A stretch of 64,000 bases of DNA, taken from assembly GCA_009801085.1 (NCBI GenBank), contig VNWV01000001.1, positions 5,084,001 through 5,148,000 on the forward strand, given 5' to 3'. Each line of letters opens with the position of its first letter. Position 1 is the first letter of the stretch. Shown here piece after piece: positions 15,339-44,700 of the stretch. A program made the position numbers and the translations under genes. The notes under the pieces are model-generated. The model saw only the letters and a list, made by a program, of their open reading frames with translations. It had not been told where the DNA came from and made no database searches. Source of the DNA: Lasiodiplodia sp. COLG20 (Eukaryota; Ascomycota; Dothideomycetes; Botryosphaeriales; Botryosphaeriaceae).

Positions 15339-15481
15339 GGTCTTGTGGTCTAGTGGTATGATTCTCGCTTAGGGCGAACCCTGAGTAGCTTGCGAGAGGC
15401 CCCGCGTTCGGTAAGTTCATCTGTTCGAATCCAAATTCCAGTATCAACAACTAACAGCTCCCCAGATCCGCGGCAAGACCC
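15339..15481 (+). tRNA. tRNA-Pro(AGG) with two introns, one a GT-AG insertion in the T loop
   Basis: Exon parts 15339-15374, 15391-15410 and 15466-15481. Acceptor GGTCTTG (15339-15345) pairs perfectly with CAAGACC (15474-15480). The D arm is GTCTAGTGGTATGAT. Anticodon stem CTCGC/GCGAG encloses TT-AGG-G-T. Intron 1 (15375-15390, 16 nt) sits at the standard 37/38 site and contains CCCT, which can pair with AGGG of the anticodon region, as in normal nuclear tRNA introns. T stem CCGCG (15402-15406) pairs with CGCGG (15469-15473), but the T loop TTCG|ATC is interrupted at 57/58 by a 55-nt insertion (15411-15465). The insertion starts GTAAGT, has CTAAC at 15451-15455 and ends CCCCAG. Removing exactly GT..AG restores a 7-nt TTCGATC loop with the invariant T54, T55, C56 and A58. 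A Pol III T-tract follows. Alternatives: a pseudogene with a recent insertion. Confidence 0.85.
15411..15465 (+). other. Spliceosomal-type intron-like insertion inside the tRNA-Pro T loop
   Basis: 55 nt with a consensus GTAAGT donor, CTAAC branch-like site 10 nt before the acceptor, and CAG end: every signal used by the mRNA introns in this window, and of similar length (48-64 nt). It contains TGTTCGAATCC at 15422-15432, a good match to the Pol III B box, while the tRNA's own B box is split by the insertion. I see no bulge-helix-bulge structure at its ends that would make it a tRNA-endonuclease intron. Confidence 0.7.
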
Positions 15482-15492
15482 AATAAGCTTTC

Positions 15493-15505
15493 TTTTTTTT
15501 TTTTT
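15493..15505 (+). terminator. RNA polymerase III terminator of tRNA-Pro
   Basis: A run of 13 T begins 12 nt after the discriminator base, preceded by TTTC. This is the normal Pol III stop and argues that the tRNA transcript extends through the T-loop insertion to the true 3' acceptor strand. Confidence 0.8.
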
Positions 15506-22016: not shown

Positions 22017-22020
22017 GAAG

Positions 22021-22092
22021 TGACCACACCAGGGGTCGAACCTGGAATCTCTTGATTCGTAGTCAAGCGCCTTGCCATTGGGCCATGCGGCC
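22021..22092 (-). tRNA. tRNA-Arg(ACG), no intron
   Basis: On the minus strand the acceptor GGCCGCA pairs with TGTGGTC, with A as discriminator (22021). The D arm is GGCCCAATGGCAAGGCG-like, the anticodon arm CTTGACTACGAATCAAG has anticodon ACG, and the T arm CCAGG-TTCGACC-CCTGG is complete. All four helices form and the B box GGTTCGACCCC is intact. It is a useful internal contrast to the interrupted tRNA-Pro at 15339. Confidence 0.95.
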
Positions 22093-41769: not shown

Positions 41770-44700
41770 ATGTCTTCCGAAGACGAGTCGCCCTTCGAAG
41801 TCTCCGACGGCTCCGACTTCGAGGCTGAGCCAGTCACGAAGAAGGCAGCCGCGAAGCCGCCAACCACCAAGAAAGCTGCGGCTCCGAAACGCGCGCCGAA
41901 GAAGAAGAACGAGCCGCTACAACCCGTCCACAACGATAGCTTCATCCGCCACGACGAAGACACCATCATGAGCGACGCATCGCCACCGCCTGCGAAGGCG
42001 CCCAAGGCCGCGCCAGGCAGCTCGACCGACAAGTACCAAAAACTCACTCAGCTTGAGCACATCATCAAACGCCCGGACACCTACATTGGCTCCGTAGAGC
42101 GGGACATGAAGCACATGTGGGTTTTCAACACCGCAACCGAGTCCATGGAAATGCGCGAAGTCAGTTTCGTGCCTGGTCTCTACAAGATCTTCGACGAGAT
42201 TCTCGTCAATGCCGCCGACAACAAGCAGAACGATAAGAACATGAACGAGATCAAGGTCAGGATCGATCGCGTCTCGGGGGAAATCAGTGTCAGAAACAAC
42301 GGCAAGGGTATCCCTATCGAAGTCCACAGCGTATGTATCCCCCCATGCCATGATACGGCATCTACTGACGCCCCATACAGAGGGAGGGCATCTACATCCC
42401 GGAGCTGATCTTCGGTCACCTACTCACGTCGTCCAACTACGATGACAACCAGCAGAAGGTCACGGGTGGACGAAACGGGTATGGAGCGAAGCTTTGCAAC
42501 ATTTTCAGCACAGAGTTCTCCCTGGAAACGGCCGATTCTCGCGTTGGGAAGAAATACAAGCAAACATGGACGGAAAACATGGGAAAGTGTGGCAAGGCTA
42601 AGATCACGTCACACAAGGGGGACGACTATACCATGGTTACCTTCAAGCCCGACTTCGCCAAGTTTGGTATGGACGGCATGGACGATGACTTTGAGGCTCT
42701 AGCCAAGCGCCGTGTCTACGATCTTGCGGGCACGTGCAAGGGCATCAAAGTATATCTCAACGGCGAGCGTATCAAGATCCGAACCTTCAAGGACTACATG
42801 AAGATGTACACCAAAGCGATCAAGTCTGAACAGGTCGCCAGCGGCGCCGGTAGCGAGGTGGAGAAGGAAGTTATCCTCACCGATAATCCGGACGAGAGAT
42901 GGGAAATCGGCTTCGCTGTGTCCGACGGTTCGTTCCAGCAAGTTTCGTTCGTGAACTCCATTGCGACGACGTCCGGTGGCACACACGTCGGCTACATCGC
43001 AGATCAAATCGTCAACAAGCTTACGGACATCATCAAGAAGAAGAATAAGGGCGGCTTCCAGTTGAAGCCCCAGCACCTGAAAAATCACATCTTCCTCTTC
43101 GTCAACTGTCAGATTGTCAATCCGGCCTTTACCTCACAAACGAAGGAGCAGATGACCACAAAGGTCAGCCAATTCGGAAGCAAGTGCTCGGTTTCGGACA
43201 ATTTCTTGAAGGCCATCGCCAAGACCGAGGTTGTGAACAACATTCTGCATTTTGCCCAGCAGAAAGCGGATCAAGTGTTGAAAAAGTCGGACGGCGGAAA
43301 GAGGATGCGCATGAACCACTCCAAGTTGACGGATGCGAACAGGGCTGGCACGAAGGATGGCTACAAATGCACCCTAATTCTGACAGAAGGTGACTCGGCC
43401 AGTTTGCTCGCCTTGGCTGGACGTGCGACCGTCGACCCAGACTTGTTCGGGGTTTTCCCTCTTCGTGGAAAGATGCTCAACGTCCGTGACGCCTCTATTG
43501 ATCAGATTTCCAAGAACCAGGAGATCCAAAATATCAAGAAGTTCATCGGTCTTCAACACAAGAAAGAGTACACCGATACTAAGAGCCTTCGTTATGGACA
43601 CATCATGATCATGACCGATCAGGATCATGATGGCAGTCACATTAAAGGTCTGCTCATCAACTTCCTGCAGGTTCAGTTCCCCAGTCTGCTCAAGATCGAA
43701 GGTTTCCTACTGGAGTTCATCACCCCAATCGTCAAGGTCTGGAAGGGCGACCCCAAGCATCCGAAACAGCTCAAGTCCTTCTTCACGATGCCAGAGTACG
43801 AAGAGTGGAAGAGGGATCCCGCGCACCAGAAGGGTTGGGATCACAAGTACTTCAAGGGTTTGGGTACTAGCAAGCCTGAAGACGCTGTCGAGTACTTCCA
43901 GGACCTGGACAAACACTTGAAGGAATTCCACACAATGAAGGACCAAGAGGCGGAACTCATCGATCTTGCTTTCTCAAAGAAGAAGGCCGACGCTCGGAAG
44001 GAATGGTTGCGTAACTTCGTCCCTGGAACTTACCTGGACATGACAGCTTCTAAGATCTCGTACGAGGACTTCGTCAACAAGGAGTTGATTCTCTTCAGCA
44101 TGGTTGACAATCTTCGGTCCATTCCCTCGGTCATCGACGGTTTCAAGCCCGGTCAACGCAAAGTCCTGTATACTTGTTTCAAGAGGAACCTTAAAAGGGA
44201 CATGAAGGTCAACGAACTCGCAGGTTTCGTAGGAGGATTGACGAACTACGCATACGGCGATGCCTCCCTTCAGCAAACGATCGTCGGCCTCGCACAGAAC
44301 TTTGTCGGTTCCAACAACATCAGCCTCCTGGAGCCCAGCGGCAACTTTGGTTCTCGCATCCAAGGTGGTAATGATGCTGCCAGCGCTCGTTACATTTACA
44401 CGAGACTGTCTCCTATCGCTCGCCGCATCTTCCATGTGGCGGACGAGCCGCTCCTCGAGCATGATCAGGACGATGGAAAGCCGATCGAGCCGACGATGTA
44501 TGTGCCGATCCTTCCGATGATTCTTGTCAACGGTGCAGATGGTATCGGCACGGGTTGGAGTTCTTCGATTCCCAACTACAATCCCAAGGAGATTGTCGAG
44601 AACCTGAAGCGCAGGATGGTCGGAAGCTGCAAGGACGACATGGAGCGCATGAAGCCTTGGTTCAAGAACTGGGATGGTGTGATCGAGGATATGGGAGGCG

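Follow-up and report, generated by a model that had tools for sequence, protein, structure and literature searches.

The window analyzed here, a stretch of 64,000 nucleotides from the genome of Lasiodiplodia sp. COLG20, contains at 15339-15481, on the forward strand, a tRNA-Pro(AGG) gene (L001) that is divided by two introns. Its 5′ exon, as read from the sequence, extends over 15339-15410 on the same strand as all the other elements of the gene, ends in CGCGTTCG, and includes an intact A box (TGGTCTAGTGG, 15346-15356), recognized from the usual consensus. Within this range, an ordinary 16-nt tRNA intron occupies 15375-15390 in the anticodon loop, between positions 37 and 38; ARAGORN places it one base later, and a bulge-helix-bulge can be fitted within two bases. 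The second intron, of 55 nt, interrupts the T loop between positions 57 and 58 (15411-15465) and is of the mRNA GT-AG type. The signals that the preliminary description had claimed for this segment were all found, with GTAAGT starting at 15411, CAG ending at 15465, and the branch-point motif CTAAC at 15451-15455, whose A, at 15454, is followed by 11 nt of intron. The motif scan also located within the intron a complete B box (GTTCGAATC, 15423-15431), a putative substitute for the B box of the exons, which the intron interrupts. The 3′ exon (ATCCGCGGCAAGACCC, 15466-15481), delimited from the sequence and the ARAGORN fold, supplies the rest of the T loop, the T stem, the acceptor stem, and the discriminator C, and a run of 13 T at 15493-15505 is likely to be a Pol III terminator.

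The preliminary description had proposed that this tRNA folds only when two segments are taken out. ARAGORN returned nothing for the locus as it stands and, with 15411-15465 removed, a tRNA-Pro(agg) with a 16-nt intron, a product identical to two genes found elsewhere in the genome (L004 and L005). The further claim that the cut must fall exactly at GT and AG stood in one respect only: GT-AG fits the splice signals, but moving both ends of the cut upstream by one base (GG..CA) leaves the joined sequence unchanged, and the exact cutting point can therefore not be read from it. The Rfam tRNA model scored 18.5 bits at the locus, under its threshold of 29; since L004, which is uninterrupted, went unreported as well at E ≤ 10, a comparison of scores before and after removal of the insert is uninformative. 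Minimum-energy folding of L004 recovered the acceptor and T stems but not the cloverleaf as a whole, and that of the window gene did not decide the matter. The sole tRNA of the window reported by ARAGORN and Rfam is an ordinary uninterrupted tRNA-Arg(ACG) at 22020-22092 on the reverse strand.

A DNA search of the assembly (43.5 Mb in 88 contigs) with the whole window gene, which skips common words, gave six places, all tRNA-Pro genes. Five tRNA-Pro(AGG) genes were found in total, and three of them (L001, L002, and L003) have an insert of the same type at the same site, with identical exons and diverged introns. The T loop of the other two, L004 and L005, is uninterrupted; they equal the window gene minus 15411-15465 over all 88 bases and retain the 16-nt intron. 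Copies both with and without the insertion, which the preliminary description had suggested looking for, are therefore present in the same genome, and the intact tRNA-Pro(AGG) copies that it named as one of several joint marks of a pseudogene do exist. The state of L004 and L005 would fit either the ancestral form or a loss through an RNA intermediate first spliced by the spliceosome. L006 is a tRNA-Pro(TGG) with the ordinary intron only. Close to their 3′ ends, the introns of L003 and of a tRNA-Pro(CGG) gene, L076, have a stretch in common, CAACTAACAGTAATT, which suggests that the two introns share an origin or that gene conversion has taken place among Pro isoacceptors. Three intron-bearing genes, L073 (CGG), L002 (AGG), and L076 (CGG), lie in less than 12 kb at G000:C1:6224055-6235480, with the tRNA-Pro(TGG) L006 14 kb further on, and this cluster is a possible site of such conversion.

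The window gene is one of many. At least 22 complete tRNA genes belonging to nine isoacceptors were found in the 43.5-Mb assembly with GT-AG inserts of 50 to 60 nt at seven different sites. This set was assembled from pattern searches for T-loop GT-AG inserts (38 matches, all but 3 of them included in the reading of flanks) and from inspection of tRNA hits that were weak or unusual, and copies of nine interrupted genes were sought by a DNA search with a joined query (35 matches, only the best candidates being scored). The interrupted genes comprise Pro(AGG) (three), Pro(CGG) (two), Ala(AGC) (one), Ala(TGC) (two), Gly(TCC) (one), Arg(CCT) (one), Arg(TCT) (two), initiator Met (four), and Phe(GAA) (six). 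In standard tRNA numbering, assigned by eye, the inserts lie at 57/58 in eight genes from five isoacceptors, at 24/25 in the four initiator-Met genes, at 30/31 in the six Phe genes, and in one gene each at 55/56, 9/10, 11/12, and 13/14. With the same numbering, none of the 22 falls at 37/38, the site at which most of these genes have an ordinary intron as well. Two tRNA-Ala 3′ halves with T-loop GT-AG inserts, L097 (G000:C78:1782850-1783150) and L129 (G000:C67:1259908-1260093), showed no recognizable 5′ half; they are probably decayed or truncated copies and were excluded from the 22.

Other searches delimit this inventory. A TTCA variant of the T-loop pattern gave 26 matches, none of which resembled tRNA introns when the matched letters alone were judged. 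For tRNA-Asp and for tRNA-Glu, a single query sequence and a single pattern each found nothing; the genes may be interrupted too or may simply diverge from the queries. The isoacceptor inventory is incomplete, several isoacceptors having given no match, which may reflect further split genes or mere limits of the search; L004 and L005 are among the ordinary genes that a genome search based on Rfam also failed to report. The Phe junction, when scanned for, matched 18 stretches of bacterial records and none of viral records. A dense cluster of tRNA genes on contig G000:C47, one of them with the anticodon TCA, is probably the mitochondrial genome and was kept out of the nuclear picture. The tRNA-Ala(AGC) loci L048, L060, L097, L108, L131, L132, and L133, with and without the T-loop intron, have a similar 3′ flank that could be used to order gain and loss, and the Phe genes (L026, L031, L032, L123, L124, and L125) also have 3′ flanks that are alike, with a possible hairpin (..TTACCAGTC..) just past the tRNA.

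As they stand, 14 of the 22 genes were not called by ARAGORN, 7 were assigned to another isotype, and 1 (L062) received the right anticodon with a false 5′ half. After removal of the inserts, the expected isotype was returned for 20 of 22; in the two Pro(CGG) genes the anticodon was wrong (Met) because the intron was misplaced, while pairing by eye gave Pro(CGG). Interrupted genes thus escape a standard finder, and for this reason errors may be present in the tRNA counts made for related fungi.

Since the boundaries of the 22 inserts were chosen by us, a blind scan is the more independent test. Each segment of 46 to 71 nt with the form GTNNGY..YTRAY..YAG was removed in turn, with a flank of 110 nt, from 315,816 fetched bases, the window included; overlapping loci were counted twice, and most loci had been preselected, the window alone being unselected. 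tRNAs spanning the new junction were obtained from 32 of 228 candidates (20 distinct), against 0 of 129 in the reversed sequence, and in the window from 15411-15465 alone. The scan missed 2 of the 22 inserts, that of L152, which lies on two separately fetched stretches, and that of L051, whose 5′ part falls, in our reading, beyond the 110-nt flank.

The splice signals of the inserts are uniform and match those of U2-type spliceosomal introns. The 5′ splice site is GTAAGT in 8 of the 22, GTAAGC in 6, GTTAGT in 5, and GTTAGC, GTGAGT, and GTATGT in one each, and all end in YAG. The branch motif is CTAAC in 19 and CTGAC, CTAAT, and TTAAC in the remaining three, with 10 to 12 nt behind the A in every case. 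As a yardstick, we used one mRNA intron of the window, inferred within a topoisomerase II gene at 42331-42380 on the forward strand (50 nt, GTATGT..CTGAC..CAG, 12 nt behind the A), where a tblastn alignment of the L. hormozganensis protein P0001 breaks and a consensus scan gave a single candidate; the signal layout of this one intron and of the tRNA inserts is the same. The topoisomerase II encoded there has its L. hormozganensis counterpart as the best among the hits listed, at 96% identity. Alignment of the six Phe genes showed 5′ exons that are 100% identical, GT-AG introns with a mean identity of 56% (40 to 71% pairwise), and upstream flanks (up to 60 nt) with a mean of 23%. All six of these introns agree in GTTAG, in CACTAAC, in the final AG, and in three isolated columns besides, and nowhere else. 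By contrast, the 37/38 intron of the Phe genes is near-constant in five of the six, L124 differing in the middle part. In the four initiator-Met introns it is also the splice and branch signals that are conserved, apart from some scattered columns.

These data bear on whether the inserts could instead be cut by the tRNA splicing endonuclease, in the manner of archaeal noncanonical introns, their GT-AG appearance being incidental. There are precedents, since introns in the D, anticodon, and T arms are described for tRNAs of Cyanidioschyzon merolae (PMC9602550) and noncanonical introns of the endonuclease type for archaea (PMC8450103), and many genes of the COLG20 assembly have ordinary 37/38 introns. 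However, with a cut shift of up to two bases, a bulge-helix-bulge could be fitted to only 3 of the 22 inserts, against 3.4 ± 1.6 in shuffled sequences, compared with 17 of 28 (shuffled, 5.0 ± 1.9) for the 37/38 introns used as positive control, a set that omits the anticodon introns of the two Pro(CGG) genes. With a shift of one base, the fits were 0 of 22 for the inserts (shuffled, 1.7) and 6 of 28 for the 37/38 introns (shuffled, 2.6), and with no shift there were none in either set. As the columns conserved in the introns are, in addition, the splice and branch signals, we regard cleavage by the endonuclease as highly improbable.

The pattern of conservation also argues that the interrupted genes work. 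The four initiator-Met genes form two pairs, between which double changes keep the acceptor pairs 6-67 and 7-66 and one T-stem pair (by eye), with the covarying acceptor partners sitting on opposite sides of the intron. Such paired changes are as expected for working tRNAs. Among the places found, all the genes for Phe(GAA) (6/6), initiator Met (4/4), Gly(TCC) (1/1), Pro(CGG) (2/2), and Arg(TCT) (2/2) were interrupted, whereas uninterrupted genes were found for Ala(AGC) (L060, L108, and L131 to L133) and Arg(CCT) (L113 and L114). The DNA search for copies returned the uninterrupted Ala(AGC) genes and missed L113 and L114, which are somewhat unlike the query, so diverged uninterrupted copies of other isoacceptors could have escaped too. 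For Phe, a pattern for the uninterrupted anticodon arm matched nowhere in the assembly at zero or one mismatch, and at two mismatches it matched 4 places, against 12 in the reversed control. The assembly may be incomplete, which limits any claim that all copies are interrupted, and outside Phe this claim is weaker. With every Phe(GAA) and initiator-Met gene found being interrupted, removal of the insert should be essential.

The preliminary description had left room for a fresh insertion that killed the window gene, a view that, extended to the whole set, would make these loci tRNA pseudogenes struck by an intron-like element. The uninterrupted copies of Pro(AGG) (2/5), Ala(AGC), and Arg(CCT) are what this would lead one to expect, and L097 and L129, without a proper 5′ half, may be genes of that kind. 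However, exons that are nearly 100% identical beside diverging introns and flanks, the stem-keeping double changes in initiator Met, and the failure to find any uninterrupted Phe, initiator-Met, Gly(TCC), Pro(CGG), or Arg(TCT) gene among the best candidates of the DNA copy search make it extremely improbable. For the window gene itself, the killing insertion finds no support, given identical exons despite diverged introns and the interruption of all the Phe and initiator-Met genes found.

A different question is where the inserts came from; they might derive from a mobile element of the introner type, preferring tRNA targets, that multiplied in a recent burst. The use of the 57/58 site in five isoacceptors and the stretch common to the introns of L003 and L076 would agree with it. 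However, the search with the whole window gene found no intron copies outside tRNA-Pro (six places, common words skipped), and introns at different sites are, by eye, dissimilar beyond their splice signals. We consider such a burst unlikely; it concerns the origin of the inserts and not their function, and is compatible with their being spliceosomal introns.

The promoter elements of the interrupted genes speak to the polymerase that would transcribe them. The B box (consensus GWTCRANNC) sits in the T loop and is consequently split by introns at 55/56 and 57/58. An exact B box is present inside seven of the nine T-loop introns and in none of the 13 introns elsewhere (Fisher p 2e-4), compared with 1.2% of shuffled introns. 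The other two T-loop introns (L003 and L051) have a B box with one mismatch, as do 2 of the 13 at other sites. The letters of the intronic B box of the window gene, GTTCGAATC, recur downstream of the coding region of the U6 gene, for which the assembly gave a single match (L049, G000:C78:1858000-1859000) and which has no intron. The A box is intact in the four initiator-Met genes. In L152, L062, and L064, the three genes whose A box is split, by introns at 9/10, 11/12, or 13/14, no substitute A box was found, the best candidates having one to two mismatches, no better than with shuffled introns. T runs of at least four occur within 40 nt of the gene in 16 of the 22 and at 44 to 46 nt in three Phe genes, that is, behind all 19 genes with enough flank (it is too short in the remaining three Phe genes), which gives indirect support for Pol III transcription.

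Splicing by the spliceosome is usually coupled to Pol II, and the interrupted tRNA genes might accordingly be placed in a Pol II rather than a Pol III setting. Apart from this customary coupling, nothing direct speaks for it. Against it are the substitute B boxes within introns that destroy the exonic one, the intact A boxes in the four initiator-Met genes, and the T runs behind 19 of 19 assessable genes, and we hold a Pol II setting to be very unlikely.

We conclude that, most probably, the interrupted tRNA genes are Pol III genes and their inserts are spliceosomal introns that the spliceosome excises, a promoter element being carried by some of them, and we place the probability of this reading, which comes from sequence comparison, at about 0.9. 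The first option of the preliminary description, a spliceosome acting on a Pol III transcript, is strongly favored by the insert shared at one site by three of the five Pro(AGG) genes and by the 19 further complete genes with inserts; the scale of the interrupted set and the B box within the intron go beyond that description. In the mechanism that we propose, Pol III would transcribe through the GT-AG intron from the A box, with TFIIIC binding the substitute B box within the intron where the exonic one is split. In the nucleus, the GT-AG intron would be excised by the spliceosome; the separate 37/38 intron would be left to the tRNA endonuclease, and the joined tRNA would fold and function. If so, introns that split the B box would survive only when they bring a B box with them. 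It is quite likely that tRNA processing in this fungal lineage cannot do without the spliceosome for Phe, initiator Met, and probably more isoacceptors, and that the B-box-splitting introns double as portable internal promoters.

If this is true, a single Pol III transcript is processed by two unrelated splicing machines, the assignment of nuclear tRNA introns to the tRNA endonuclease no longer holds as a rule, and translation is tied to the spliceosome, so that protein synthesis in COLG20 would depend on the mRNA splicing machinery in a previously unknown way. It would also make testable the action of the spliceosome on Pol III transcripts generally, the handling by TFIIIC of a B box that has moved, and, with paralogues with and without the intron in one genome, the entry of introns into structured RNA genes.

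The preliminary description knew of no fungal nuclear tRNA with GT-AG/CTAAC signals, and our literature search, which covered titles and the openings of abstracts with partial coverage of subscription journals and preprints, likewise found no report of spliceosomal introns in nuclear tRNA genes. Compared with the ordinary nuclear 37/38 introns, those described here differ in position, signals, and pattern of conservation. Introns in tRNA arms beyond 37/38 are a likeness with C. merolae, where atypical introns include those of the D and T arms (PMC9602550), and with archaea, where noncanonical introns have been sought and modeled as bulge-helix-bulge structures (PMC8450103). Unlike the archaeal introns, those of COLG20 have GT-AG ends and a branch motif, and fit a bulge-helix-bulge at chance level. 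A close parallel is the U6 snRNA gene of Schizosaccharomyces, which shares with these genes an mRNA-type intron in a Pol III gene (Pol III being deduced here from sequence) and a B box within the intron. PMC10484740 cites Tani and Ohshima (1989) and Frendewey et al. (1990), the second of which reportedly found, going by its title, that the introns contain a sequence matching the tRNA promoter B box. In COLG20, by contrast, the hosts are many tRNA genes with seven sites, some with a second intron at 37/38, and its own U6 is intronless. The mRNA-type intron of Schizosaccharomyces U6 is described in PMC10484740, and spliceosomal introns in fungal U3 snoRNA genes in PMC5832005, which stated in 2017 that, among small structured RNAs, frequent interruption by an intron was so far known for U3 and U6 alone. 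The U3 case is alike in having a spliceosomal intron in a small structured RNA and unlike in that U3 is not a tRNA. What COLG20 would add to the known pairing of a Pol III gene with a spliceosomal intron is its wide spread among tRNA genes, those of essential isoacceptors included.
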